DNA from: Nodosilinea sp. LEGE 07298
Lineage (GTDB): Bacteria; Cyanobacteriota; Cyanobacteriia; Phormidesmidales; Phormidesmidaceae
Direction of reading: 5' to 3'
Assembly: GCF_015207265.1 (NCBI RefSeq)
Contig: NZ_JADEXE010000029.1
Coordinates: forward strand, 1-38,623
DNA: 38,623 nucleotides
Under the pieces are notes generated by a model that ran no database searches, was not told the origin of the DNA, and saw only the letters and a list, made by a program, of their open reading frames with translations. Positions 14,347 through 27,902 of the stretch are shown here, piece after piece (within the stretch, counting starts at the first letter, position 1; every line of letters begins with the position of its first letter). The position numbers were made by a program, and so were the translations under genes.

Positions 14347-15204
14347 ATGAGTCAAACCTACAAAACTATTGGCATCAATCTCAAGGCCATGCCTCTGGGC
14401 GAGAGCGATCGCCTGCTCACCATTCTTACCCCCGATCTTGGTTTGGTGCGGGCGGTGGCACCGGGGGCGCGGAAGCACCAGTCGCGGCTGGGGGGGCGTA
14501 GCGGTCTCTTTGTCATTAACGAATGCCTGGTGGTCAAAGGCAAGCGCCTCGACAAACTCATTCAGGCCGAAACCCTGCGCACCTTTCCAAAGCTAAGCCA
14601 GCACCTGGGCCGGCTGACCGCCAGCCAGTACCTGGCAGAGGTGGCCCTGTTGATGGCCCTGAGCGACTGTGCCCAGAGCGATTTGTATACTGTACTAGTA
14701 GAGCACCTAGAGCGCCTTGAAGCCGCTGCTCCTGGAGCGCTGCTGGCGGCTCTTTGCCACGGGCTGTACCACCTGCTAGCCCTAGATGGGGTGGCCCCCG
14801 AGGTGCACCGCTGTACCCGCAGCCGGGTCGATATTGTGCCCAACCTGCTCGACCCCGCCTGGCGAGTCGAGTTTAGCGCCGAAGCTGGAGGGCTGGTGCA
14901 GCTTGCCGTTTCCCCCCAGCTTGCGGAGGCATCAGGGCGCTACGGCCAGGGCCAAAAGGGGCCTACCCTGCTGACCGCCACCGATGTCGCTTTGCTCCAG
15001 CAGTTGAGCAAGCCTGACATTGTTTCTACTCTGCCCACTGGCCTACCTGTGGGCCTGTCCACCGGCTTAGATTCTGCTGGGTCTGAGAAAAGCCAGCAGC
15101 TGTGGTCACGAGTTGAGCGACTGCTGCGAGAGTATACTCAAGACTACTTTGAACGTCCTATCCGGTCGGCAACTTTAGTTGATGTCTGTTTTGCTACCGT
15201 TTAA
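14347..15204 (+). CDS. recO: DNA repair protein RecO
   Basis: RecO promotes loading of RecA onto SSB-coated single-stranded DNA, with RecR and RecF, in gap repair. The 285-aa protein has the N-terminal OB-fold start (Y-K-T-I-G-I-N-L-K-A-M-P-L-G-E-S-D-R-L-L-T-I-L-T), then G-A-R-K, S-R-L-G-G and the helical C-terminal domain beginning near residue 85. The zinc-binding cysteines present in some RecO proteins are not evident: only H-R-C-T-R-S remains of that region. The MFS gene starts 47 bp downstream on the same strand, a probable two-gene operon. The start at 14347 is the obvious one. Confidence 0.93.
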   Translation: MSQTYKTIGINLKAMPLGESDRLLTILTPDLGLVRAVAPGARKHQSRLGGRSGLFVINECLVVKGKRLDKLIQAETLRTFPKLSQHLGRLTASQYLAEVALLMALSDCAQSDLYTVLVEHLERLEAAAPGALLAALCHGLYHLLALDGVAPEVHRCTRSRVDIVPNLLDPAWRVEFSAEAGGLVQLAVSPQLAEASGRYGQGQKGPTLLTATDVALLQQLSKPDIVSTLPTGLPVGLSTGLDSAGSEKSQQLWSRVERLLREYTQDYFERPIRSATLVDVCFATV

Positions 15205-16887: not shown

Positions 16888-18042
16888 ATGCACATCGCGT
16901 GGCTAGGCAAAAAAACGCCCTTTTGTGGCAACGTTACCTATGGCAGAGAGGTTACTAACGCCCTGCTTGAGCGGGGCTATCGAGTTACCTTTTTGCACTT
17001 CGCTCAACCTCAGGAGGGGCACGCTGCCGACCACCTACCGCGTTCAGAGGAGGTGCCATTACCCTTTCTGTTCAAGTCTCAGATTCTGACTATCCCCTCG
17101 CTCAAGTCGGGCAAATTGCTGGCTGAGGCCCTGGAACGATTACAGCCTGACCTAGTCCATGCGTCGCTGACCCTGTCGCCCCTAGACTTTCGGCTGCCAG
17201 AGATTTGCGCCGAGCTGAATATTCCTCTGGTGGCCACCTTTCACCCCGCCTTCGATCGCCGGGTGCGGAGTCTGACTTCGGGCACCCAACACCTCACCTA
17301 CCAGCTCTATGCTCCCTGTCTGGCCCACTACGATCGCGTGATTGTCTTTTCTGATCTCCAGCGCGACCTGCTGAGCAAGCTGGGGGTACCCGCCTCTACG
17401 CTGGTGGTGATTCCCAACGGGGTGGATACCCGTCGCTACTCGCCGGGGCCATCGGCGGTGAAGGCCGACCTGTACGCCCAGCAGCTATTTGTCTATCAAG
17501 GGCGTATTTCCCTTGAAAAAAATGTGGAGGCTCTGCTGCGGGGCTGGCGGCAGGCCGATATGGGCCACCGCTGCAAGCTAGCGATCGTCGGCAGCGGCCC
17601 GCTAGAAGCCTCTTTAAAGCGGTTTTACGGCGATGAGAACGACATTATCTGGCTAGGCTACCTGGCCAACGAGCAGCGCCGCATCGATATTCTGCGGGCG
17701 GCGGATGGGTTTATACTGCCGTCTTTAGTCGAAGGGCTGTCGCTGTCGCTGCTGGAGGCGATGGCCTGCGGCACGGCCTGCATTGCCACCGATGCCGGGG
17801 CCGATGGCGAGGTGCTGGCCGAAGGGGCGGGCATTGTGCTCGATACCCAGCGGGTGTCGGCGCAGCTGCAAACCATTTTGCCCATTTTGCGCGATCACCC
17901 TGAAATTACTCAGCTTTTGGGACACAAGGCTCGCGAGCGGGTGCTGCTGCGCTACACCCTGCGGGACAATATTTCTGCCCTAGAAGCCCTCTACAGTGAG
18001 GTGACGGCGGAGCAGCGGCTGATGTGCGGCCAGCGAGCCTGA
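16888..18042 (+). CDS. GT4 family glycosyltransferase
   Basis: A 384-aa retaining glycosyltransferase of family GT4 (GT-B fold). I chose the ATG at 16888 because M-H-I-A-W-L-G-K-K begins the first Rossmann strand. The upstream extension to 16837 is not family-like. The acceptor-side N-domain contains F-C-G-N-V-T-Y-G-R-E-V-T. The donor-binding C-domain has V-I-P-N-G-V-D-T, then F-V-Y-Q-G-R-I-S-L-E-K-N, and the E-x7-E motif in V-E-G-L-S-L-S-L-L-E-A-M-A-C-G. The N-terminal G-N-V-T-Y-G-R-E segment is a conserved cyanobacterial form. I have a weak recollection of similar sequences linked to galactolipid synthesis (DgdA-like), but this is not secure and no gene name is given. No hydrophobic helix is present, so it would be soluble or peripheral. 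Confidence 0.85.
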   Translation: MHIAWLGKKTPFCGNVTYGREVTNALLERGYRVTFLHFAQPQEGHAADHLPRSEEVPLPFLFKSQILTIPSLKSGKLLAEALERLQPDLVHASLTLSPLDFRLPEICAELNIPLVATFHPAFDRRVRSLTSGTQHLTYQLYAPCLAHYDRVIVFSDLQRDLLSKLGVPASTLVVIPNGVDTRRYSPGPSAVKADLYAQQLFVYQGRISLEKNVEALLRGWRQADMGHRCKLAIVGSGPLEASLKRFYGDENDIIWLGYLANEQRRIDILRAADGFILPSLVEGLSLSLLEAMACGTACIATDAGADGEVLAEGAGIVLDTQRVSAQLQTILPILRDHPEITQLLGHKARERVLLRYTLRDNISALEALYSEVTAEQRLMCGQRA

Positions 18043-18120
18043 TCGGGGCTGAGCGGGTAGGCTACGGCTTTAGCTGATTTGCCACAATAGGAAATAGTCT
18101 TGTCGCCAGGTTCACGGTGT

Positions 18121-18900
18121 ATGCCTATGCCTTCTCCTTTTCCTGGGATGGATCCCTACTTGGAGCAGGCGACGTTTTGGTCGTCGTTCCATAGCCGTTT
18201 GATTGTGGCATTGGCAGATGCCCTGGCTCCTCAGCTGCGGCCTCGCTACTACGTCGAAGTTGAGACTCGCACCTATACCGATACCCCTGACGGGGGCGAG
18301 GTGCTGGTAGGCATTCCCGATGCGGTGGTTTTGTCTCGGCAGGCCATACCCTCACCTTTGGCTCAATCCTCAGGTTCTATGGCGGTTCAGCCGGTGACCC
18401 TGCCCATACCGACGGAAGTAAAAGAGCGGTACCTTGAGATTCGGGAGGTAGGCAGCAACGCGGTAATCACCGTAATCGAAGTGCTTTCGCCCAAAAAGAA
18501 GCGCTCAGGCAAAGGACGCACTGTCTATCAAGAGAAACGCCAAGCTATTTTGGGCAGCGCCTCTCATCTGGTGGAAATTGATTTGCTGCGGGGCGACTCG
18601 CCCTTGCCGATGGAGGGGCAGATTAATCTGGCTCACTACCGGATTTTAGTCAGTCGAGCCGAGACTCGTCCCCACGCTGAACTTTATGCTGTGACGGTGC
18701 GGGAGGCGTTGCCCTGCTTTCCGCTGCCGTTGCAGGCGGCGGATGGTTCGGTTTTGGTAGACTTATCGGCTATTGTCGGAGGCGTTTATGACCGCGCCAG
18801 CTATGACCTCCGCATCGACTACAGCCAGTCGCCGCCGCCGCCACCGTTTTCGGAGGATGATCAGGTTTGGATGCAGAATTTGTTGAACTCGACTTCCTAG
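18121..18900 (+). CDS. DUF4058 family protein
   Basis: A 259-aa member of DUF4058, a family especially expanded in cyanobacteria and without known function. It has the defining start M-P-S-P-F-P-G-M-D-P-Y-L-E, then H-S-R-L-I-V-A-L-A-D-A-L-A-P-Q-L-R-P-R-Y-Y-V. The central block I-T-V-I-E-V-L-S-P-K-K-K-R is present, and so is Y-Q-E-K-R-Q-A-I-L-G-S-x-x-H-L-V-E-I-D-L-L-R-G. The E-V-L-S-P-x-x-K and E-I-D-L-L-R-G pieces recall restriction-endonuclease-like folds, but no catalytic role is established. Starts at 18121 or 18127 are both possible; the family's usual first residues favour 18127. It is followed by the AT-richer accessory region. Confidence 0.9.
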   Translation: MPMPSPFPGMDPYLEQATFWSSFHSRLIVALADALAPQLRPRYYVEVETRTYTDTPDGGEVLVGIPDAVVLSRQAIPSPLAQSSGSMAVQPVTLPIPTEVKERYLEIREVGSNAVITVIEVLSPKKKRSGKGRTVYQEKRQAILGSASHLVEIDLLRGDSPLPMEGQINLAHYRILVSRAETRPHAELYAVTVREALPCFPLPLQAADGSVLVDLSAIVGGVYDRASYDLRIDYSQSPPPPPFSEDDQVWMQNLLNSTS

Positions 18901-19026
18901 AGGGATGGCCCTAAAGAATACCTCGATCCCACCCTTGGAGCCGAGGGAAAACCTTGGACTCTGCCGTAGAGTTCTACCGTCGCTATTAAGATAGCTCCCC
19001 TAAAATTGGGCAATCTGGAAAAATAG

Positions 19027-19059
19027 CCGAGTTGCCCTTCAACCGTATAAGAAACTCGG
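19027..19059 (+). promoter_or_regulatory. Leader hairpin before the 19076 gene
   Basis: CCGAGTT and AACTCGG pair across a 19-nt loop and end two bases before the ribosome binding site AAGGGAG (19062-19068) of the gene at 19076. It may modulate translation or stabilise the message. Confidence 0.3.
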
Positions 19060-19075
19060 TCAAGGGAGTATCAAA

Positions 19076-19720
19076 ATGCAGACATCACCGATCGCATGTC
19101 GACCGCTTGCCGACTGGGTAGGGCAAACCGTTCGCTTTCAGGGATACCTGAACTACTGGGAAACGGCTAATAGAACTGACGATACAGCGTTTCTACTGCA
19201 ACATGTCAAGGTGGTGCCTTACAAAGGGTGTGAGAAGCAAATAAGAACGCTGGATCATATTTGGTTGTATTCACCCAAAGAAGCCCATGCCAACACCAAG
19301 CTCGAACGGCTCAACGCATACGGAGCGGTTGGAAAAGTAGTCAGCTATATCCGGAGTAATGGCACCAAAGATTTTGCTATTAACGTCAAGTCTTTTGCGC
19401 CGATGGCGTGGCATCTTGAGCTGCTTGATTCGTATGGAGAATCCAAGCTCGATCACATCAAAGCCAGAACATTAGTGCTGGAAGAGACGCTGAACGCATT
19501 AGAATCCGAAGAGTTGCATTTTGATATTCACTTATCCTACGAGGAGGTTTATCAGGACTTTCAGGATGAATATGAGTTTTGTCGCAGACATATTGAAATC
19601 AACGAGCGGTATGAGGTCAACAAACAGCACCGCTCCAAGCCCAAACCGGATATTCTCAAGTTTGCTTCAACATCATCGAAGTCAACCAAGTTAGCCTGCA
19701 AGGGCTTCGCCGCCTCGTGA
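19076..19720 (+). CDS. Hypothetical protein, possibly frameshifted at its 3' end
   Basis: An uncharacterised 214-aa protein with a good ribosome site (AAGGGAG seven bases before the ATG). The first ~105 residues look like an OB-fold: W-V-G-Q-T-V-R-F-Q-G-Y-L, K-V-V-P-Y-K-G, H-I-W-L-Y-S-P, G-A-V-G-K-V-V-S-Y-I and D-F-A-I-N-V-K-S. Residues ~120-190 are helical and charged. The last ~20 residues are low-complexity (S-T-S-S-K-S-T-K), whereas the +1 frame over the same bases (from about 19655) reads N-I-I-E-V-N-Q-V-S-L-Q-G-L-R-R-L-V-I. A third frame continues D-L-S-G-D-E-K-V-H-A-A-I-E-L to a stop at 19796. Both tails look more protein-like than the one in frame, so the gene may be broken. It is AT-richer than the neighbouring DUF4058 gene. 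Confidence 0.6.
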   Translation: MQTSPIACRPLADWVGQTVRFQGYLNYWETANRTDDTAFLLQHVKVVPYKGCEKQIRTLDHIWLYSPKEAHANTKLERLNAYGAVGKVVSYIRSNGTKDFAINVKSFAPMAWHLELLDSYGESKLDHIKARTLVLEETLNALESEELHFDIHLSYEEVYQDFQDEYEFCRRHIEINERYEVNKQHRSKPKPDILKFASTSSKSTKLACKGFAAS

Positions 19721-19823
19721 TCTATCTGGTGATGAAAAAGTGCATGCTGCGATCGAATTGAACTACTTAACGGTTGCAATCACCGAACTTAGATAACCTA
19801 TGCTGCAAACAGAGTTGGTTAGA

Positions 19824-19847
19824 TTGGGTTGAGTTTGCAAAACCCAA
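19824..19847. repeat. TTGGGTT/AACCCAA hairpin
   Basis: TTGGGTT (19824-19830) and AACCCAA (19841-19847) form a 7-bp stem with a 10-nt loop. The same stem sequence forms the core of the dispersed repeat at 19926, so this may be a truncated relative. It lies downstream of the hypothetical gene at 19076. Confidence 0.45.
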
Positions 19848-19925
19848 CCTAAAAAAACGGCGCAACCATTCAGCCAAGAATAATGCAGGAACTGATTAAG
19901 ATATTATCCCTCAAGACACAATGGT

Positions 19926-19997
19926 TTGAGAGTAAGGCCCTTTTGGGCTTGTTGGGTTTCCTTCGTCAACCCAACCAACAGGAAATCTGCGATCGCT
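19926..19997. repeat. Dispersed repeat, copy 1 (about 72 bp)
   Basis: Starts TTGAGAGTAAGGCCC and ends CTGCGATCGCT, with a hairpin core GTTGGGTT/AACCCAAC (19951-19958 and 19968-19975). A second copy in the same orientation lies at 21568-21638 with only a few substitutions and one short deletion. The TTGGGTTTCCTTCG-type hairpin core is a familiar non-coding interspersed motif in filamentous cyanobacteria. This copy ends 15 bp before the stop codon of the minus-strand gene at 20012. Confidence 0.8.
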
Positions 19998-20011
19998 TTT
20001 CTTCGGGAAAA

Positions 20012-20494
20012 TCAGAGTAAGCCTTCAAGGGATTGATCGAGTACGATTCGAGTCAGCAGTTCTTGCACTTTGTTGGCCTCATAGTGAAACGAATAGATGG
20101 TCGCAAAATAAAGCCAACTTAGTGGCCACAATCCCACAATCCCTATGCCTGCAAGAATGATACAAAAGACAATTAGCACTGGCAACAATACCAGAATATT
20201 TTCCATTGATAGCTGTAGAGTGAGGTGAATCCGGGTCTCTTGCCCTGCCGCTTCTAGAGTTCCTGCTGTGCGAAGCCGCCACCGCTTGTTTGCCCAAGGC
20301 CCAATTAATAAAAGGTGATCGCCATCAAGTTGCCCTTGGTAACGCACAGGCCGATAAGACCGACGGGTCAACATAATCTCCTGCTGAAACTGTGAAGCGA
20401 AACGCCGCTCTACCTCCATCAACGATACAGGAAAGACAAGGTGAGTTCGACGATAAGGAATGAGATAACGCGACCAGGATTGTGCAGCAACCAT
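20012..20494 (-). CDS. Hypothetical membrane protein
   Basis: A 160-aa protein of unknown function. Residues ~1-95 are soluble, basic and beta-rich (R-R-S-Y-R-P-V-R-Y-Q-G-Q-L, H-L-L-L-I-G-P-W-A-N-K-R-W-R). They are followed by a transmembrane hairpin at about 98-135 (I-L-V-L-L-P-V-L-I-V-F-C-I-I-L-A-G-I-G-I and W-P-L-S-W-L-Y-F-A-T-I-Y). A short amphipathic C-terminal helix (N-K-V-Q-E-L-L-T-R-I-V-L) closes the protein. I recognise no family. The dispersed repeat lies immediately after its stop. Its long upstream gap contains a frameshifted ORF relic on the other strand. Confidence 0.6.
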   Translation of the reverse strand: MVAAQSWSRYLIPYRRTHLVFPVSLMEVERRFASQFQQEIMLTRRSYRPVRYQGQLDGDHLLLIGPWANKRWRLRTAGTLEAAGQETRIHLTLQLSMENILVLLPVLIVFCIILAGIGIVGLWPLSWLYFATIYSFHYEANKVQELLTRIVLDQSLEGLL

Positions 20495-20947
20495 AGCAAT
20501 GGAATAACGCGGATAGGGTTAAATACAAGGGGGTGATCGCTGCTTCCAGAAATCTACTGGGATTCTGACCTCAAATAGATAAGATACGTAGGCTTAACCT
20601 TGACTCAGACCGATCACCATTGGGGAGTCATCACACAAGTTGATTGCTTCGATGAACTGAACCTTGAACTGGGGGGGCGATCGCACACCCACCGAGCATA
20701 GTCAAACCACCCAACTTGTAGCCTTTCACCAGACAATTACCACAATGCTGAAAACCAGCTAACGGGGCAAAACGCAACGGCGGCAGATAGCCTCGAACTC
20801 AGCACTAGTACTCTGCGGCGCAAGTTTAGATACTATTACTCCGGGGGCTAGGGAGCAGGGGGGCTGAGGAGCCAAGCAATTCGAAATGGTGCACATATTT
20901 CAGCCGTCGAGTACCAGCGGCTCTCGTATGTCCACTGCTGTGACACG
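20495..20947. other. Gene-poor stretch with an ORF relic
   Basis: About 450 bp without an intact gene, between two minus-strand genes. It contains the frameshifted plus-strand relic at 20600-20762. A plus-strand open stretch (20700-20850) reads D-N-Y-H-N-A-E-N-Q-L-T-G, then S-T-L-R-R-K-F-R-Y-Y-Y-S-G-G, but has no start codon. This looks like decaying coding DNA. Confidence 0.5.
20600..20762 (+). pseudogene. Small ORF broken at a run of seven G
   Basis: From a TTG at 20600 the frame reads L-T-Q-T-D-H-H-W-G-V-I-T-Q-V-D-C-F-D-E-L, then N-L-E-L, up to the G7 run at 20671-20677. If one G is dropped, reading continues G-G-D-R-T-P-T-E-H-S-Q-T-T-Q-L-V-A-F-H-Q, then T-I-T-T-M-L-K-T-S, to a TAA at 20762. 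As sequenced, the frame instead hits TAG at 20698. I do not recognise the product. A homopolymer error in the assembly or a true frameshift are both possible. Confidence 0.4.
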
Positions 20948-21487
20948 TTAGCTCGCGTCATGCACCTTGGCATACATAAACGCATCTCTAGGAATTGCTG
21001 AAATATTAGGGCGGATTTGATAGCAACGCAACCTCCCTTCACACACTAAACCACTCTTTTCCAGAACTTTAACTGAAGCATGGTTTTCCGTATCGCAAGT
21101 TGCCCAAACCCGATAAATTTCTGGCAAATTAATTGCCCATTCCACTACAGCACAAGCGGCTTCTGTTGCATAACCTTGTCCCCAATATTTCCGATTAAGC
21201 AGATAACCAAAACCAGCCGCATGCTCTTCTAACCAACAAGCGATCGTGCCAATGGGTCGATTATTTGGCTTGACCGTAAGAACCCACGAAAAGTTCCCTG
21301 ATTCCCACCGTTCAGACTGCCCCTCAAGAAATTTCACAACTTCATCAACATCTGTGCGGGGGAAATAATCCATGTAGTGAATGACTTTGAGATCACTGGC
21401 GTATTCAAAGATTGCCTCTGCGTCTGAAAGGCGAGGACGGCGTAAAACAAGCCTTTTCGTTGTAAATACTTCAGGAGCTTGTAACAC
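20948..21487 (-). CDS. GNAT acetyltransferase, RimJ-like
   Basis: A 179-aa N-acetyltransferase. The opening T-T-K-R-L-V-L-R-R-P-R-L-S-D-A-E-A-I-F-E-Y is characteristic of the RimJ/RimL branch. The acetyl-CoA pyrophosphate loop is Y-W-G-Q-G-Y-A-T-E-A, with V-W-A-T-C-D-T-E-N-H-A-S-V-K-V-L-E-K-S-G-L in the C-terminal half. RimJ-like enzymes acetylate ribosomal protein N-termini or small molecules; the substrate here is unknown. Codon and base use are AT-rich compared with the core genes. It lies inside the segment bracketed by the two direct copies of the dispersed repeat. Confidence 0.88.
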   Translation of the reverse strand: MLQAPEVFTTKRLVLRRPRLSDAEAIFEYASDLKVIHYMDYFPRTDVDEVVKFLEGQSERWESGNFSWVLTVKPNNRPIGTIACWLEEHAAGFGYLLNRKYWGQGYATEAACAVVEWAINLPEIYRVWATCDTENHASVKVLEKSGLVCEGRLRCYQIRPNISAIPRDAFMYAKVHDAS

Positions 21488-21851
21488 GAGAGCAGGTTCA
21501 CCTTTGCGGCAAGTAATGAGTTCAAACGTTTAAGAATATTGGATATAGCCCAACTTTTGAATTTCCCTTGAGAGTAAGGCCCTTTCGGTCTTGTTGGGTT
21601 TCCTTCGTCAACCAAGCAACAGGAGATCTGCGATCGCTCTAAATGATAACCAGTTTTCTGAGTAGAATGTGTCATCGCGCAGCGTAGTGCACCACTGGTA
21701 ATTGTGAGCATTCTAACGGAGAGATTAGTGCATTGCGGTTAGAAGAGTTAATGAGAATTGCCAAAATCTTAGAGTCGACATGCTTCCTTCGTTCACTACC
21801 ATCTCTGTATTTGGATCACTAGAACTTCAAACCTCAAAACGGAAAGCAGGC
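21488..21851. other. Intergenic stretch holding repeat copy 2
   Basis: About 360 bp between the reverse transcriptase stop and the GNAT start, both on the minus strand. It holds the second copy of the dispersed repeat (21568-21638). The rest is AT-rich, and I see no convincing ORF or RNA gene in it. Confidence 0.55.
21568..21638. repeat. Dispersed repeat, copy 2 (about 71 bp)
   Basis: Same orientation as copy 1, from TTGAGAGTAAGGCCC to CTGCGATCGCT. Relative to copy 1 it has a few base changes (for example CCCTTTCGGTC for CCCTTTTGGGC) and has lost one C in the right arm of the hairpin (AACCAAG for AACCCAACC), so its stem is weaker. The two copies bracket about 1.6 kb with two genes and the ORF relic. 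Confidence 0.8.
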
Positions 21852-23459
21852 CTAGAACGGAATAGCATGTTCGTCTTCGTCGGCCTCCTGTTGAGCATCG
21901 TAGCCGTACTTCGATGAACTTATCGCTGCCTTGTTGAATTGCGAGACAGATGTCATGTGCTTGTCAAAGTTTATAAGTTCAACTTCCTTCTCTGCGAGAT
22001 GTTCAAACTCATCTGCAAAGTCGCCGGAGAATTTTGCTTTGGAGTAGTCTAACGACTTCCCAACAAGGTTGTGGAGCCAATTTGAATCAGATGTCGAGAG
22101 ACTTCTTCCAAGGGTAATGGGCGGTTTTTTATTTAACTTGCCTTTTCCATAAGCAGCGATGATCAGCGCACGCAGGTGTGAATTTTGCATCTTGCTCACT
22201 TGGGATATAAGGTCTTCATCAAGATGCAAATTGCATACCAAGGCCGTCCACAAAAGCCATGCTATTTCATGATGCTGATTAAACGCCAAATGTCTTTTGA
22301 TCAACATTGCTACTGTTTCTGACCAACCTGAGCGATCAAAGCTTTGTTGTATTGCGACTCTCTTAGTTAGTAGAAGGCAAACATAGTCAGTACAATGCTC
22401 ATAGTGCCACAAGACACGCTGAAGCATAGCCTCAATGCTTTCCCATAAATCCGATCTATAGCATTTTGCTGTATCAAGACGCCGTAAGATTAATTTTATC
22501 GGGCTCTGTGACTTGACTGATTTTGCAACTTCATGCGCTTTGTCAATCGCATACGAGTATTTGCCTGACCACGATTCGAGCGATATCGCCCTAAGCTCTT
22601 GAGCCCACACATCATCGAACGCCTCAAGACCGCTGATTACTTTCGTCTTAGTGTCATTAATTTGGAGTTCATATGTTTGTAGAATATCGCGCAGAACTGA
22701 CAGAACCACTGCCGCATCGACTTCGCTTCTTACTCCAATATAAAAGTCGTCAACGTGTCGGACCCCCCCAATGATTATATTGGGGTCTATGTTGTTTATC
22801 CTTTCGAGAAGTTGATTGTCAATTTCGCAGCTTATAAATTCAGCAAAAATCCTAAATGCGTCAGGACCAACCGTCACTCCTCTAGTTTGACCGCTTTGGC
22901 ACTGCTGAGTGAACCAGTCAAATGCATTGAAAGTTGCAGTGGTGGAATTATGTTTAAGATTAGCTTTGGCAACATCGCGGCCATGAGCCACCCAAGACAC
23001 CGCATGAGTGTAGATGCTTGGGAAAAACTGCGCAATATCGGCTTTCAATATGTAAGGCGAGAAACGGATCTGAGATGATATTCGATTTGTTAGCTCACTT
23101 AAAGTAGGAACAATAATAGCTCGATCTTCTGTGCCGCGACCTAGTCTGACTTTATCCAAGGATAGCTTCGACGACTTAAACTTAGTCTCAAATATTTCCC
23201 AATTACTGAAGATAAATTGGCAAGCGTTGAAATAGGGAATAGGATTTACTGTCCCATAAGCTCTCCGATGACCATCATGCTTTGTGCCGCTATAGCGAAT
23301 ATAATCCGCTGCTCGATTATGAAACTTTCGCGCTTCTATATCTTGAGTCTTTCCCTGGAAACTTGCGGCTAGATTCTCACTGTCAAAGCAAGGTGGTAAA
23401 ACTTCAGGGAAAAAGCCCTTGTTGAGAAGTAAGTTCCTAATATGAGTTTGCTCTGTCAT
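21852..23459 (-). CDS. UG/Abi-type reverse transcriptase (putative antiviral, DRT-like)
   Basis: A 535-aa stand-alone RNA-directed DNA polymerase. The palm domain is intact. Motif A is K-A-D-I-A-Q-F-F-P-S-I-Y-T-H (D141), followed by V-A-H-G-R-D-V-A-K-A-N. Motif B is Q-T-R-G-V-T-V-G-P-D-A-F-R-I-F-A-E-F-I near residue 200. Motif C is R-H-V-D-D-F-Y-I-G (D237, D238), with K-T-K-V in the following block. The F-P-S-I-Y-T-H...H-G...A-K-x-N and G-x-x-x-G-P-D signatures are those of UG/Abi (DRT) reverse transcriptases, many of which protect against phage. Residues ~285-500 are helical, as expected for the alpha-repeat C-terminal region of that class; the last ~35 are acidic. There is no maturase domain, no DGR template repeat and no retron motif. 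It is AT-rich, with no Shine-Dalgarno and no adjacent accessory gene. Reverse transcriptase identity is secure; the defence role is inferred. Confidence 0.85.
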   Translation of the reverse strand: MTEQTHIRNLLLNKGFFPEVLPPCFDSENLAASFQGKTQDIEARKFHNRAADYIRYSGTKHDGHRRAYGTVNPIPYFNACQFIFSNWEIFETKFKSSKLSLDKVRLGRGTEDRAIIVPTLSELTNRISSQIRFSPYILKADIAQFFPSIYTHAVSWVAHGRDVAKANLKHNSTTATFNAFDWFTQQCQSGQTRGVTVGPDAFRIFAEFISCEIDNQLLERINNIDPNIIIGGVRHVDDFYIGVRSEVDAAVVLSVLRDILQTYELQINDTKTKVISGLEAFDDVWAQELRAISLESWSGKYSYAIDKAHEVAKSVKSQSPIKLILRRLDTAKCYRSDLWESIEAMLQRVLWHYEHCTDYVCLLLTKRVAIQQSFDRSGWSETVAMLIKRHLAFNQHHEIAWLLWTALVCNLHLDEDLISQVSKMQNSHLRALIIAAYGKGKLNKKPPITLGRSLSTSDSNWLHNLVGKSLDYSKAKFSGDFADEFEHLAEKEVELINFDKHMTSVSQFNKAAISSSKYGYDAQQEADEDEHAIPF

Positions 23460-23483
23460 AAAGATTTTTAGTATTTATGAAAT

Positions 23484-23512
23484 TTAATATATAGGGTTTT
23501 TGTCGCTTTCAA
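23484..23512 (-). promoter_or_regulatory. Possible sigma70-type promoter of the reverse transcriptase
   Basis: On the minus strand TTGAAA (complement of 23507-23512) is followed after 17 bases by TATTAA (complement of 23484-23489), about 25 bases before the ATG at 23459. The match is modest and the region is AT-rich, so chance is possible. Confidence 0.3.
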
Positions 23513-23633
23513 TTCAGCTGTGGATTTGTCTTCACTAAATAAATCCTTTAAAGAGATTTTTGTCAGCCTAGCACATCTATCCAAATGGTTAAACGAAATT
23601 TTGTTGGCCCAATACCCCTATTAAAGAGTGATT

Positions 23634-23689
23634 AGGTAGAAAAATATCAGCCTAATTGCCCTAATGGCGCACTAGATAGAAAAATTCAG
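23634..23689. repeat. Imperfect direct repeat AGRTAGAAAAAT
   Basis: AGGTAGAAAAATATCAG at 23634-23650 and AGATAGAAAAATTCAG at 23674-23689 lie 40 bp apart in the same orientation, each preceded by similar bases. The spacing is close to four helical turns, as for paired regulator sites, and they lie 175-230 bp upstream of the reverse transcriptase start. Confidence 0.45.
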
Positions 23690-23705
23690 TATAGCCACTC
23701 CCCCC

Positions 23706-23720
23706 ATTGCAGACTGCAAT
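23706..23720. promoter_or_regulatory. 15-bp palindrome ATTGCAG-A-CTGCAAT
   Basis: Two perfect 7-bp half sites separated by one base, in the divergent spacer between the reverse transcriptase and the gene at 24017. The geometry fits a dimeric HTH regulator. No regulator gene of the local island is visible. Confidence 0.4.
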
Positions 23721-23843
23721 CCTTCAGATTCCCTCTACTAAACAGCTTCCCTCCACGGTTGACACTGAGCGTCTGTATCAGTACTGTTTTACGTTAAGCC
23801 GTTCGACCCGAGCGGTTGACCTACAGAACTCGAAAACTTTAGC

Positions 23844-23878
23844 GCTGTCGGAAGGTGTTCTCAGCACCAACCGACAGC
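23844..23878 (+). ncRNA. Strong isolated hairpin, possible small RNA part
   Basis: GCTGTCGG and CCGACAGC close an outer 8-bp stem. After a two-base internal mismatch, GGTG and CACC extend it around a 7-nt loop. It is followed 47 bp later by the terminator-like hairpin at 23925, so the two could belong to one small plus-strand transcript. The strand is a guess, because the structure forms on either. Confidence 0.3.
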
Positions 23879-23924
23879 TGACCCCGCAAATCTCAGAGGC
23901 AGATTGCGAGGCTAGGCTCATGGT

Positions 23925-23973
23925 ACCCTAGCCCCCTCAGTTTGCACGGCAAGCGCGGGTGGCTAGGGTTTTC
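23925..23973 (+). terminator. Terminator-like hairpin
   Basis: ACCCTAGCC (23925-23933) pairs with GGCTAGGGT (23961-23969). CCC/GGG extends the stem past one bulged T, and the loop contains a further TTGC/GCAA stem. It runs straight into TTTTC on the plus strand. No gene ends here, so it would terminate an unannotated RNA or form part of the leader of the gene at 24017. Confidence 0.45.
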
Positions 23974-23975
23974 GC

Positions 23976-24014
23976 GTTCTGTTTCTTCCGTAACCCATTA
24001 CAAGGAAACAGAAC
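23976..24014 (+). promoter_or_regulatory. Hairpin covering the ribosome binding site of the 24017 gene
   Basis: GTTCTGTTTC (23976-23985) and GAAACAGAAC (24005-24014) form a perfect 10-bp stem with a 19-nt loop. The right arm includes the end of the AAGGA ribosome site (24002-24006) and ends two bases before the ATG. That would restrain translation unless the stem is opened. Confidence 0.45.
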
Positions 24015-24016
24015 CG

Positions 24017-24367
24017 ATGTTTGAATATCAAGAGCCCGACGCCAACGATGATCAAGGCACCGAGTCCCTACCGCTGCCGCCATCTGGAACCATTAACAAA
24101 GGGACCCGGTCCCCAAACCCCGAGAAAGTACGCCACATGCTTTACGGCAGCTTGGCTGCCATAGACCGCACCATCAAAATCCTCCACTCCCTGGGCTACG
24201 CCGACGCCAACGACTGGTCAGAGCCCATGCCCGCGCCAGTGAGCGGTGCTAAGCCCCGGTCGTCGAGCGGAGTCGAGACGCGGTCGCCGAGCGGAGTCGA
24301 GACGCGGTCATCGAGCGGAGCCGAGACGTGGATGGCGATACTGACCAAGACCCTGCTGATTGAGTAG
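24017..24367 (+). CDS. Conserved small cyanobacterial protein with an in-frame repeat insertion
   Basis: A 116-aa protein of unknown function. The conserved core is P-E-K-V-R-H-M-L-Y-G-S-L-A-A-I-D-R-T-I-K, then I-L-H-S-L-G-Y-A-D-A-N-D-W-S, ending M-A-I-L-T-K-T-L. I recall similar short helical proteins in many cyanobacteria. Between D-W-S and M-A-I-L lies a linker containing three tandem copies of an 8-residue unit (R-S-S-S-G-V-E-T), encoded by 24-bp DNA repeats. This interrupts a region that is short in the relatives I remember. I chose the ATG at 24017, with AAGGA about 10 bases upstream. A longer frame from 23942 would run through two hairpins. The gene is divergent from the reverse transcriptase and convergent with uvrB. 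Confidence 0.65.
   Translation: MFEYQEPDANDDQGTESLPLPPSGTINKGTRSPNPEKVRHMLYGSLAAIDRTIKILHSLGYADANDWSEPMPAPVSGAKPRSSSGVETRSPSGVETRSSSGAETWMAILTKTLLIE
24257..24328. repeat. Three tandem 24-bp repeats inside a gene
   Basis: Units at 24257-24280, 24281-24304 and 24305-24328 each contain CGAGCGGAGYCGAGACG and differ at only a few bases. Being 24 bp, they keep the frame and add eight residues each. The G-A-G-C-G-G-A-G-T-C-G-A core resembles a non-coding interspersed repeat that I recall from Leptolyngbya-type genomes. Confidence 0.85.
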
Positions 24368-24377
24368 CTTCTTGCCA

Positions 24378-24439
24378 AGAAACCGGGTGCCTGCTGGTTT
24401 TCCAAAAATTAGGCTACAAGCAGCAGACACCCGGTTTCT
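24378..24439. terminator. Long inverted repeat between convergent genes
   Basis: AGAAACCGGGTG (24378-24389) pairs with CACCCGGTTTCT (24428-24439). After a single mismatch, CTGCTG pairs with CAGCAG, giving 18 paired positions around a 24-nt loop. It lies between the stop codons of the convergent genes at 24367 and 24468 and so probably ends both transcripts. No T-run follows on either side. Confidence 0.7.
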
Positions 24440-24467
24440 AATCGCCAAAACCTAAGATCTAAATTAC

Positions 24468-26471
24468 CTACGATCGCTTGCCGATTAGCTGATCGCGCAG
24501 AGATTTGATGCGATCGCGAAATTTAGCCGCCTCCTCAAAATCGAGGTTCTTGGCGGCCTCTTTCATCTGCTTTTCAAGCTGGCCAATAAATTCGGGGATG
24601 CTTTCCAGGGGCAGCTCGTCTTTGTGCTCGTAGACCTCCTCTAGCTCGTGGGCGTTGAGGCGGCGCGATACTTCGAGGAACGACAAAATCGAGTTGCTGT
24701 TGCGCCGAATGATGGAAGTCGGGGTAATGCCGTTGGCCTCGTTGTGAGCGGTTTGGATGGCGCGGCGGCGCTCGGTTTCGCTGATCGCTCGGGCCATGCT
24801 GTCGGTGAGATTGTCGCCGTAGAGAATGGCTTGACCGCTGATGTGGCGGGCGGCGCGGCCGATGGTCTGAATCAGCGATCGCTCGGCCCGCAAAAACCCT
24901 TCTTTGTCGGCATCCAAAATCGCCACCAGGGAAACCTCCGGCAAATCTAGCCCCTCCCGCAGCAGGTTGACCCCCACCAGCACGTCGTACAGCCCCTCGC
25001 GCAGGTCTTGGATGATCTCAATCCGCTCGATGGAGTGGATCTCGGAGTGCAGGTAGCGCACCCGCACGCCGTGCTCCTCAAAGTATTCGGTCAAATCTTC
25101 GGCCATGCGCTTGGTCAGGGTGGTGATCAGCACCCGCTCTTGCTTGGCGGCCCGCTCGCGCACTTCGCCCAGCAGGTCGTCGATTTGCCCCTCGGTAGGG
25201 CGCACAAAGATTTCGGGGTCGAGCACCCCGGTGGGGCGAATGATCTGCTCGACCACCTTGCCGCCGGAGATCTCCATCTCCCAGTTGCCGGGGGTGGCCG
25301 AGACAAAGATGCACTGGTTCACCTTCTCCCAAAATTCTTCGGCTTTTAGGGGGCGGTTGTCGGCGGCGCTGGGCAGGCGAAAGCCGTGGTCGATCAGCAC
25401 CATCTTGCGGCTGCGATCGCCGTTGTACATAGCGTGAATCTGCGGGATGGTAACGTGGGATTCGTCAATCACCAGCAGCCAGTCTTTAGGGAAGTAGTCG
25501 AGCAGACACTCTGGCGGTGCCCCGGCAATGCGACCAGCCAGGTGGCGGGCGTAGTTTTCTACGCCGTTGCAGTAGCCCACCTCGCGGATCATTTCCAGAT
25601 CGTAGCGGGTGCGCTGCTCTAGCCGCTGGGCCTCCAGCAGTTTGCCCTCTTTCTCTAGCTCCGCCAGCCGCTCTTGCAGCTCATCTTTAATCGCCTGACA
25701 GGCTTCGTCAATGCGATCGTCGGGGGTGACAAAGTGCTTGGCCGGGTAAATGCTGACGGCATCCATGCTTTGCAGGGTGGCTCCGGTAATCGGGTCCACG
25801 TAGCGTACGGCATCGATTTCGTCGCCAAAAAATTCGATGCGAATAATCCGGTCTTCGTAGGCAGGGCCGATCTCCAGCACGTCGCCCTTAACTCGGAACT
25901 TGCCTCGGCCCAGGTCTAAATCGTTGCGCGCATACTGAATTGAGGCTAAGTCGCGCAGCACCTGGCGCTGGTTGACCTCCATGCCGACCTTCAGCGGAAT
26001 TGAGGCTTTCAGGTATTCTGACGGGATGCCGAGGCCGTAGATGCAGCTAATCGAAGCCACCACAATCACGTCTTTGCGCTCGAACAAAGAGCGGGTTGCC
26101 GAGTGCCGCAGCATATCGATTTCGTCGTTGATCGAGGCGGTTTTGGCGATATAGGTGTCGGTGGTGGGAATGTAGGCCTCGGGCTGGTAGTAGTCGTAAT
26201 AGCTAATGAAGTACTCGACGGCGTTGTCGGGGAAGAACTCGCGCAGTTCGTTGCAGAGCTGGGCCGCCAGGGTTTTGTTGTGGGCCAGCACCAGGGTGGG
26301 CTTGCCGATGTTGTCGACAACGCGGGCGATGGTGTGGGTTTTGCCCGTGCCCGTCGCTCCCAGCAGGGTTTGGTACCTGGTGTTGTCTTGCAGAAACTGG
26401 GTTAGGCCCGCGATCGCCTTTGGCTGGTCTCCCGCAGGTTCAAAGGGAGCCTGAATGTTGAAGTCGCCCAT
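24468..26471 (-). CDS. uvrB: Excinuclease ABC subunit UvrB
   Basis: The damage-verification helicase of nucleotide excision repair, which binds UvrA and then UvrC in the cytoplasm. At 667 aa it has the standard length and all signatures. Walker A is G-A-T-G-T-G-K-T near residue 40, and the beta-hairpin is [12 protein letters not shown] near 95. The D-E-S-H box lies near 340 and the helicase motif G-R-A-A-R-H near 540. The C-terminal UVR domain ([15 protein letters not shown]), which contacts UvrC, is also present. It is convergent with the gene at 24017, with a long inverted repeat between the stops. A weak ORF lies immediately upstream on the same strand (26499-26690). Confidence 0.98.
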
Positions 26472-26725: not shown

Positions 26726-27514
26726 TTGCGAACAGTGTTGCGAACCGTTTTTGCCACCCGATACGTCACTCCCCTGCGGGAGGGAGGCTCTCTCCCCGCC
26801 ATTGTGGAAGCTGACGATGACGGCATGTATGTGCTGAAGTTTCGGGGTGCCGGTCAGGGAGTCAAGTCTCTGATTGCCGAACTTGTGGCTGGAGAAATTG
26901 CGCGGGCCGTCGGCCTGCTGGTGCCCGAAATTGTCCTGATCGAAGTCGATGCCGAACTGGCCCGTACCGAACCCGACCCCGAAATTCAAGACTTGATTCG
27001 AGCCAGTGTGGGCCTCAACCTGGCCCTCGACTACCTGCCCAGCTCCATCACCTTTGACCCCGTTGCCCAACAGCCCGATGCGGCCCTAGCCTCGGCCATT
27101 GTCTGGCTCGACGCCTACGTCACCAATATCGATCGCACCGCCCGCAACACCAATATGCTGATGTGGCACCGCCGCCTCTGGCTGATTGATCACGGCGTTG
27201 CCCTCTACTTTCACCACAGCTGGAACAACTACCTAGAGCGCAGCCGCACCCCCTTCCCCGGCATCAAAGATCACGTCTTGCTGCGGTTTGCCAGTCAGCT
27301 ACCAGAGGTCGATGCCACCATGACGGCCCAGCTAACGCCAGACGTTATCACTGACATCGTCAACCTAATTCCAGAGCCCTGGCTGCTTGAGGGCTCTCCG
27401 TTTACCAATAGCCAACACCATCGCGAGGCTTATATTGAGTATCTGCTGAAGCGGCTAGAGCCACCCCACGCTTTTTTAGAGGAGGCCATTCGTGCACGAT
27501 CACCTCACCTATGA
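26726..27514 (+). CDS. HipA-like kinase
   Basis: A 262-aa protein kinase-fold enzyme of the HipA family, shorter than the HipA toxin (~440 aa). The catalytic pattern is present: K38 in Y-V-L-K-F-R-G and E52 in the following helix. D136 and N141 in N-I-D-R-T-A-R-N-T-N-M have the same five-residue spacing as HipA Asp309/Asn314. The metal-binding D155 lies in L-I-D-H-G. It should therefore be active, with an unknown target. The N-terminus T-R-Y-V-T-P-L-R-E-G-G-S-L-P-A-I-V-E-A-D is typical of this stand-alone branch. The start is uncertain: TTG 26726, GTG 26735 and TTG 26738 are all possible. It overlaps the downstream DUF3037 gene by 23 bp, so the two are translationally coupled. No HipB-like repressor is adjacent. 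Confidence 0.85.
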   Translation: MRTVLRTVFATRYVTPLREGGSLPAIVEADDDGMYVLKFRGAGQGVKSLIAELVAGEIARAVGLLVPEIVLIEVDAELARTEPDPEIQDLIRASVGLNLALDYLPSSITFDPVAQQPDAALASAIVWLDAYVTNIDRTARNTNMLMWHRRLWLIDHGVALYFHHSWNNYLERSRTPFPGIKDHVLLRFASQLPEVDATMTAQLTPDVITDIVNLIPEPWLLEGSPFTNSQHHREAYIEYLLKRLEPPHAFLEEAIRARSPHL

Positions 27515-27902
27515 TTACGCCATCATTCGGGTGGTGCCTAAGGTCGAGCGAGAAGAGTTTGTCAACGTTGGTGCGATCGTTTCATGCGCGAAGCGCAAAT
27601 TTCTCGAAGCCAAAATTGAACTGAATCCTCAACGGCTGCTCGCCCTTGACCCCACCCTAGATTTAGAGACGGTCCAGGGCTATTTAGACGCCATTCCGAT
27701 CATTTGCGCCGGAGAAACCCAGGCTGGCCCCATTGGTCAACTGCCCCAGCGAGAACGGTTTGGCTGGCTGGTGGCCCCCCGCAGCACGATCATTCAAACC
27801 TCACGGGTGCATACCGGCCTGTGTAGAGATCTATCGGCTGTGATCGAACACCTGCTGGCGACTATGGTGCGTCCGCTCCCGTGCCCCCTGGGGAAACGCT
27901 AA
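27492..27902 (+). CDS. DUF3037 family protein
   Basis: A 136-aa DUF3037 protein, partner of the HipA-like kinase. It starts with GTG at 27492 inside the kinase gene, behind a strong GAGGAGG ribosome site. The family core is visible: Y-D-Y-A-I-I-R-V-V-P-K-V-E-R-E-E-F-V-N-V-G-A-I-V-S, then A-K-I-E-L-N-P-Q-R-L-L-A-L-D-P, and R-F-G-W-L-V-A-P-R-S-T-I-I-Q-T-S near the C-terminus. No enzyme function is known for the family. The fixed pairing with a HipA-like kinase suggests substrate, inhibitor or adaptor. A hairpin (ATCGCT/AGCGAT, 27938-27954) follows the stop. Confidence 0.85.
   Translation: MHDHLTYDYAIIRVVPKVEREEFVNVGAIVSCAKRKFLEAKIELNPQRLLALDPTLDLETVQGYLDAIPIICAGETQAGPIGQLPQRERFGWLVAPRSTIIQTSRVHTGLCRDLSAVIEHLLATMVRPLPCPLGKR

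Follow-up and report, generated by a model that had tools for sequence, protein, structure and literature searches.

An intact DRT6 reverse transcriptase of a well separated sub-lineage in a variable island of a Nodosilinea genome

We analyzed a window of 38,623 nucleotides from Nodosilinea sp. LEGE 07298, which carries a reverse transcriptase (RT) gene in a variable island bounded by a glycosyltransferase gene and uvrB (Table 1). The minus strand holds the RT as an uninterrupted frame of 535 codons, and the plus strand is full of stops over the same interval. Upstream of the RT and divergent from it lies a dispersed unit made up of a promoter, a predicted structured leader RNA and a small open reading frame (ORF). 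The island also holds a gene for a GNAT acetyltransferase that we place outside the system.

Table 1. Features of the window discussed in the text, with window coordinates
Feature	Position	Strand	Remarks
recO	14347-15204		encoded in the window
Variable island between glycosyltransferase gene and uvrB	18041..24466		absent exactly in genome G032
GNAT acetyltransferase gene	20951..21487	minus	in the island, outside the system; stretch absent at the same locus in genome G045
DRT6 reverse transcriptase gene	21852..23459	minus	535 aa + stop, ATG start
Acidic tail ending ...EADEDEHAIPF, SSB-tip-like	21855..21887	minus	residues 524-535 predicted disordered
AISSSKYGYD, motif A[IL][SE]-x5-Y-[DE]	21897..21926	minus	residues 512-521; candidate priming Y518/Y520
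HVDD catalytic motif	22746..22757	minus	residues 235-238
Catalytic Asp141 codon, palm motif A	23037..23039	minus	column invariant in 62-row DRT6 alignment
Dispersed unit (promoter, predicted structured leader, small ORF)	23755..24396	plus	divergent from the RT, on its upstream side
Sigma-70-like promoter TTGACA-N17-TACTGT	23759..23787	plus	
Predicted structured leader RNA	23798..23980	plus	long-range stem CAGAACTCGAAAA/TTTTCGCGTTCTG
Small protein MFEYxEP...VRHM..YGSLA..DRTIKILH...GY	24017..24367	plus	116 aa
uvrB	24468..26471	minus	conserved island edge

The RT protein has the sequence features that an earlier sequence-only reading had assigned to it. That reading placed a frame at exactly these coordinates, without naming a strand, and described an intact palm. 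We found all of its blocks as described: D141, H235-V-D-D238, FPSIYTH (residues 146-152), HGRDVAKAN and GVTVGPD. The long helical C-terminal region that it expected is visible in an AlphaFold2 model built from a 62-row alignment (pLDDT 92.8), with helices at residues 300-438 and beyond. Pfam returned RVT_1 alone (33.4 bits, cut-off 29.6). The gene is under purifying selection, with dN/dS of 0.104 and 0.064 against two congeners. The description of the surrounding DNA as an AT-rich insert holds in relative terms, with a GC content of 43.2% for the RT, 47.6% for the island and 55.2% for the window. The view of H-V-D-D as divergent was half right. The motif is found in 21 of 93 aligned RTs in the form RHVDD, which is common to the whole clade of this RT (11/11) and to 10 of the 15 members of its sister clade; the other five sisters have LVDD.

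Profile and structure comparisons identify the family. The best PADLOC profile for the RT was Drt6 (PDLC03748), with an E-value of 2.4e-140 and 467 bits, and the match runs over nearly its full length (residues 8-529 on profile positions 4-510). Models named Drt4 reached up to 295 bits, the UG15 profile PDLC03752 scored 216 and UG30 170; AbiK (125 bits), DRT3b (112) and Abi-P2 (92) were lower still. DRT9 was absent among the 25 families shown in this search. The closest structure to the RT model was PDB 9wy8, entitled "Cryo-EM structure of the hexameric DRT6", with Z 39.8 and 2.2 Å over 483 residues at 25% identity. DRT4 structures followed (9vdo and 9l9s, Z 33.7 and 30.6, 22% identity in the structural alignment), then AbiK (Z about 26) and Abi-P2 (Z 24). 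The best group II RT gave Z 15.8 over 279 residues, a DGR enzyme 15.4 and a retron 13.7. In a tree of 93 proteins, the RT nests within DRT6-like proteins. This tree was made by a quick method with SH-aLRT support and without bootstrap; outgroup rows L013 and L101 are long-branched, row L100, an intended outgroup, fell inside DRT6, and the DRT6 labels of the other rows rest on the profile scores of 10 of them.

The RT is thus an intact member of the already described DRT6 family, a class 1 UG/Abi group. DRT6 is reported to be the same as UG12 (Mestre 2022). The sequence-only reading had proposed a stand-alone UG/Abi RT, perhaps of an undescribed subgroup, and had suggested profiles and a tree with other DRTs as checks. 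The first part is borne out by profile and fold. The second fails, since profile, fold and tree all point to a named family with a solved structure, and the novelty is limited to a well separated sub-lineage within DRT6. Other identities found no support, and none of the outcomes that the earlier reading had named as refuting was seen. A group II intron maturase is contradicted by the lack of maturase or HNH domains in the Pfam result and by the low Z score, DRT4 (UG15) by 216-295 bits against 467 for Drt6, and AbiK and Abi-P2 by their profile scores. The profile and fold comparisons gave no sign of a retron or DGR enzyme, and Rfam at gathering scores found no match in the window. Two PADLOC profiles named Drt4 (PDLC02177 and PDLC02179) score some DRT6-like proteins at least as highly as the Drt6 model does, and automatic DRT4 and DRT6 labels may be mixed.

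We examined relatives of the RT in a scan of 84,980 species genomes, from which the best 80 of 407 relatives were retained as loci. Eight of these 80 are 44-54% identical to the window protein. Together with the copies from the genus, they form a clade of 11 sequences (SH-aLRT 100, stem of 0.98 changes per site) with three members from the window genus, two from Bacteroidota and six from alphaproteobacteria; the remaining loci reach at most 32% identity. The kin belong to Chryseobacterium, Sphingobacterium, Brevundimonas, Novosphingobium, Phyllobacterium, Aminobacter, Aureimonas and Aestuariispira; locus L020, a named record of Tildeniella torsiva, is the G045 contig. Fifteen alphaproteobacterial proteins are the sister group (SH-aLRT 97). 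Forty-six positions are specific to the clade, being shared by 90% or more of its 11 members and by no more than 10% of 72 other rows. In the tree, the 11 remaining cyanobacterial DRT6 rows stand apart. Because the kin lie in Bacteroidota and alphaproteobacteria, apart from other cyanobacterial DRT6, the genus probably acquired the RT by horizontal transfer, as judged from these sequence relationships. The Drt6 model at E 1e-30 found 12 of 386 cyanobacterial genomes, five of them above 460 bits. Carriage by phages or plasmids was considered and rejected, as only distant matches were found: 206 of 72,556 plasmid records and 9 of 50,697 phage records matched at E 1e-5, all below 60% identity and none over more than 80% of the length, and the best identity among 28 viral-contig loci was 29%.

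Comparison of the locus among related genomes, another check suggested earlier, showed that the RT is accessory within its genus. It is present in 3 of 26 genus genomes, at two loci. Among the 63 genomes of the order there are four matches: the window genome, G045 (92%), G043 (88%) and a weak one in G021 (25%). One genome, G032, has an exact empty site: window position 18040 aligns to base 970 of its stretch L128, and position 24467 to base 972. DNA of the uvrB stretch occurs in 25 of the 26 genomes. The RT was absent from 12 further stretches fetched at the place of uvrB (one of only 1.9 kb), six of which keep the glycosyltransferase gene on the opposite side. Nothing occupies the slot in G032, and in other genus genomes it holds other small genes. 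In G045 the RT lies at the same place as in the window and the GNAT stretch is missing. By eye, we noticed a direct repeat of about 70 bases (TTGAGAGTAAGGCCCTTT..TTGTTGGGTTTCCTTCGTCAACC.., window 19927-20000 and 21567-21640) that flanks this stretch. In G043 the RT lies elsewhere, and the two loci have only the RT frame and the dispersed repeat unit in common.

We found no conserved partner gene for the RT, in agreement with the earlier remark that it lacks known accessory genes. We compared all frames of at least 50 amino acids from 10 clade loci against each other. Besides the RT, sharing was limited to the small ORF of the repeat, which the window and G043 have in common, to uvrB, present in the window and in L025, and to frames antisense to the RT or uvrB. 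The clade member of Aureimonas flava (L025:5920-10602) directly adjoins uvrB, as in the window. We took this adjacency, seen in 2 of 10 loci, to be a coincidence.

Some neighbors of clade members resemble defense genes. We tested 13 of the 60 non-RT frames from eight loci with PADLOC; these were picked by eye and all came from four loci. Six of the 13 matched (LmuB, two LmuA-like proteins, HerA, SIR2 and SoFic), in three of the four loci. Beside the Sphingobacterium clade member is a Lamassu-like set (L022:124-4823), the third gene of which also matches the DRT-associated MBL model RTasMBL at 138 bits. In the window itself, a pair of genes for a HipA-like kinase and a DUF3037 protein adjoins uvrB (26726-27902) and matches the PADLOC defense candidates PDC-M66A (1.5e-23) and PDC-M66B (4.3e-9).

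We propose that the RT is a single-gene antiphage DRT6 system, acting as a hexamer that would make single-stranded DNA without a template from a tyrosine primer, and we assign this reading a probability of about 0.75. The observations behind it are the intact palm, the helical second domain, the DRT6 fold, purifying selection, a patchy, mobile distribution, and the failure to find a partner gene or a conserved RNA beside the RT. By analogy with DRT6, DRT4 and AbiK, the RT would assemble as a hexamer, and one of its own tyrosines would prime DNA synthesis in which no nucleic acid serves as template. The DNA product would be kept low in uninfected cells. A phage protein that protects the product would allow it to accumulate, and the cell would stop or die before phage release. 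We propose that priming occurs at the YGYD pair of the flexible C-terminal arm, a location like that in DRT9 and DRT3b, and not at an N-terminal tyrosine like that of AbiK. The reviews PMC13213688 and PMC13314766 liken DRT6 to DRT4 as a system of one gene, which phage ORF55 is able to activate. DRT6 has a structure, yet no resolved product according to these two reviews.

The C-terminal tyrosines lie in a strictly conserved motif. A[IL][SE]-x5-Y-[DE] is found in all 11 members of the clade and all 15 of the sister clade, and in none of the 56 other DRT6 proteins (82 DRT6 in total). The clade form, AIS-x-x-[KR]-Y-G-Y-D, occurs in 11/11 sequences, so that both Y518 and Y520 are conserved throughout, and the sister form, A[IL]E-x5-Y-[DE], in 15/15. 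After YGY, the clade tails run for 10-33 residues, counting the D of the motif, and consist of 38-80% D or E. Residues 524-535 of the RT have pLDDT values under 50 in the AlphaFold2 model and are predicted to be disordered. Two tyrosines fixed at the base of a disordered arm offer a sharp prediction for the priming residue. C-terminal tail tyrosines serve as primers in DRT9 (according to passages of PMC12483538) and in DRT3b (according to passages of PMC13174585). As 56 of 82 DRT6 proteins lack the strict motif, any priming site shared by the whole family would lie outside it. Another conserved tail block, DEEYFD, with its tyrosine in an acidic stretch, occurs in L047, L077, L142, L143, L145, L146 and the protein of PDB 9wy8, and it is possibly the counterpart of the YGYD motif.

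A DRT6 enzyme primed from its N-terminus, at Y53 or Y56, is a serious contender that falls somewhat short of even odds. The YGYD motif and acidic tail would then serve control or hexamer contacts. Y56 is invariant in 11/11 clade members and present in 40% of 72 other DRT6 rows, and passages of PMC9508834 place the priming residues of AbiK (Tyr44) and Abi-P2 (Tyr61) toward the N-terminus, in the loop that joins helices 2 and 3. However, the AlphaFold2 model puts Y56 in a strand rather than a loop, and YGYD keeps its fixed place at the base of the disordered arm. From conservation and predicted structure, either the YGYD pair or Y56 could possibly be the primer.

The proposed C-terminal arm of the RT continues into an acidic tail whose end resembles the tip of single-stranded DNA-binding protein (SSB). 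The C-terminal hexapeptide of Escherichia coli SSB is DDDIPF (PMC5872125). DRT6 proteins end in F or Y in 47 of 82 cases and in PF in 11 of 82. Control frames of at least 150 amino acids from the same 80 loci (586 minus one RT, L099, leaving 585) ended in F or Y in 26 cases, in PF in none and in PY in one. With one protein per 60%-identity cluster, the counts were 30/56 for F or Y and 7/56 for P[FY]; 2000 shuffles of the last 30 residues gave means of 6.6 and 0.33, and the largest values were 16 and 3. The pattern was spotted by eye and these statistics come from the same set of proteins. Among 13 later loci that are not near-duplicates (L141-L144, L146, L202-L204, L206-L209 and L212), read by eye, five end in F or Y and one in PF. 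Three of these (L207, L208 and L212) reach only about 327-333 bits against the Drt6 model and possibly fall outside DRT6 proper; the L208 gene is also recorded as L213, and the L207 gene as L214. Some RT tails lack the terminal aromatic, for example L025, L032, L035 and L036. Outgroup RTs end in Y in 5 of 10 cases and in PF in none; thus an aromatic last residue by itself does not set DRT6 apart, and P-F does.

We compared RT tips with SSB tips from the same hosts. Three SSB-like proteins are encoded by the window host: one (L139) ends PSYDDIPF, the best-scoring one SDSEF and the other AQEF; the RT ends HAIPF. The SSB-tip feature of the window RT is its terminal P-F on an acidic disordered tail. 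Acidic residues just before IPF, which the window RT lacks (H-A), are present in its relatives L039 (DDIPY) and L060 (DDLPF). SSB tails were readable in 19 of 20 other hosts. The SSB tip nearly equals the RT tip in two of the 19, a gammaproteobacterial MAG (G456; SSB FDDLGDDIPF, RT FDLGDDIPY) and a Chitinophagaceae genome (G462; SSB RDDLPF, RT YDDLPF). The other 17 were weaker, at best acidic with F or PF. We found no description of an SSB-like tail in DRTs in the titles, abstracts and SSB passages covered.

The acidic tail with its terminal aromatic may instead be an internal DNA mimic that fills the product channel until displaced and has no outside partner. We regard this as tentative, with odds clearly on the lower side. 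The tails are acidic, F/Y ends are far commoner than in control frames, and the outgroup ends suggest that an aromatic last residue may be common to class 1 in general. A plug would not need the nearly letter-for-letter match to the tip of the host's own SSB that is seen in 2 of 19 hosts.

More speculatively, the arm could combine a priming tyrosine with an SSB-tip mimic that docks SSB-binding repair proteins (such as RecO, RecJ, RecQ or PriA, and not ExoI in these hosts) on the nascent DNA. Host machinery would then trim or sense the product, and the block would be lifted by a phage that interferes with SSB traffic, so that the mimicry would act as a sensor or leash. In E. coli, RecO binds the SSB tip (PMC7913777). 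The DRT9 product is trimmed by host ExoI up to the point where a phage protein competes for its 3' end (PMC12483538). ExoI itself was rejected as a partner of the tip in these hosts, as none of 21 DRT6 hosts has the ExoI C-terminal domain PF08411, which the E. coli control has. Because a near-exact tip was found in only 2 of 19 hosts and the best-scoring SSB of the window host has no IPF end, we consider this idea unlikely. Binding of SSB-like tips to host repair proteins, if it occurs, would account for the restraint and the triggering of a single-gene polymerase.

The dispersed unit beside the RT was examined in its other copies. We read 12 copies, plus fragments, in the window genome; all copies considered are window 23755-24396 and L105-L114, L225, L005, L006 and L127. 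The promoter, TTGACR-N17-TAnnnT, is present in 14/14 copies (11 from the window genome and three from others). The leader of about 195 nt has a consensus fold of -75 kcal/mol, compared with -23.8 +/- 3.6 in column shuffles. Its opposite strand folds almost equally well (-67 vs -75). Covariation is slight, with both sides changed in 1 of 56 pairs, so support for the predicted structure comes mainly from its stability relative to column shuffles. The small ORF is intact in 15/15 copies (82-136 aa) with pN/pS of 0.38. The small protein matches no Pfam family and the leader no plausible Rfam family; the kilobase upstream gave only chance-level eukaryotic and CRISPR-repeat models (E 0.64-3.5 and above). 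We did not find the unit described in the titles and abstracts covered.

The unit recurs next to divergent genes. In 12/12 copies of the window genome, the closest frame of 180 amino acids or more on the side of the promoter lies on the opposite strand, a count of frames rather than annotated genes with a threshold chosen after looking; in L109, a 97-aa frame on the other strand also overlaps the edge. The divergent genes encode DRT6, a Thoeris-like ThsA macro protein (234 bits), a TIR/ThsB-like protein (166 bits), DUF4365, DUF2867, TPR, WD40 and TENA-like proteins, and unknowns. PADLOC at 1e-5 matched 4 of the 11 non-RT divergent genes (two strongly, one, WD40, unspecifically) and none of four genes tested on the other side of the unit. 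Distant homologs of the small protein occur in seven nostocalean plasmid records, and the upstream gene is divergent in four of the five regions read. From this arrangement, the unit may regulate, mobilize or merely mark the adjoining genes, and it could be a handle on accessory and defense genes in this cyanobacterial genus.

A locally encoded RNA such as the structured leader, used as template or scaffold in the manner of a class 2 DRT, is very unlikely. A structured RNA unit does lie upstream of the RT in all three genus copies. However, the unit carries an outward-facing promoter of its own and is scattered through the genome at places lacking an RT, and of 80 DRT loci only L020, from the same genus, holds similar DNA (blastn, E 1e-3). 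The distance from the RT start codon to the unit is about 295 bases in the window and only about 20 in G043, leaving no room for a conserved 5' RNA, and the intergenic DNA upstream of the RT is not shared with G043. Least credible of all is a domesticated cyanobacterial housekeeping RT or a decayed remnant: the contig carries the housekeeping genes uvrB, chorismate synthase and recO and no phage family was found among 30 window frames scanned with Pfam, but the two loci and exact empty site, the absence of any single locus holding the RT in nearly all of the 26 genus genomes, the kin outside cyanobacteria and the intact frame with dN/dS near 0.1 or below all argue against it.

These results place the RT among known systems. 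Like DRT9 and DRT3b, it has tyrosines in its C-terminal tail, where those enzymes use them as primers; DRT9 requires an ncRNA and DRT3b acts with DRT3a, whereas the window RT is a single gene. Its tail shares an acidic, disordered character and an I-P-F end with the SSB tip, but it has H-A in place of D-D before IPF and lacks an OB fold. AbiK and Abi-P2 have the same two-domain architecture, and template-free, protein-primed synthesis is the model they share with our proposal; they differ in fold score (Z 24-26 vs 39.8 for DRT6) and in priming from an N-terminal loop, where we propose a C-terminal site. DRT4 (UG15) is alike in joining an RT to a helical domain in a single gene. The closest likeness is to the DRT6 of 9wy8, in fold, in the full-length profile match and in being a single gene, and an acidic tail is present in the 9wy8 sequence as well, past its modeled residue 495. 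The window RT differs from it in belonging to its own clade, with RHVDD and the YGYD tail motif, at 25% identity.
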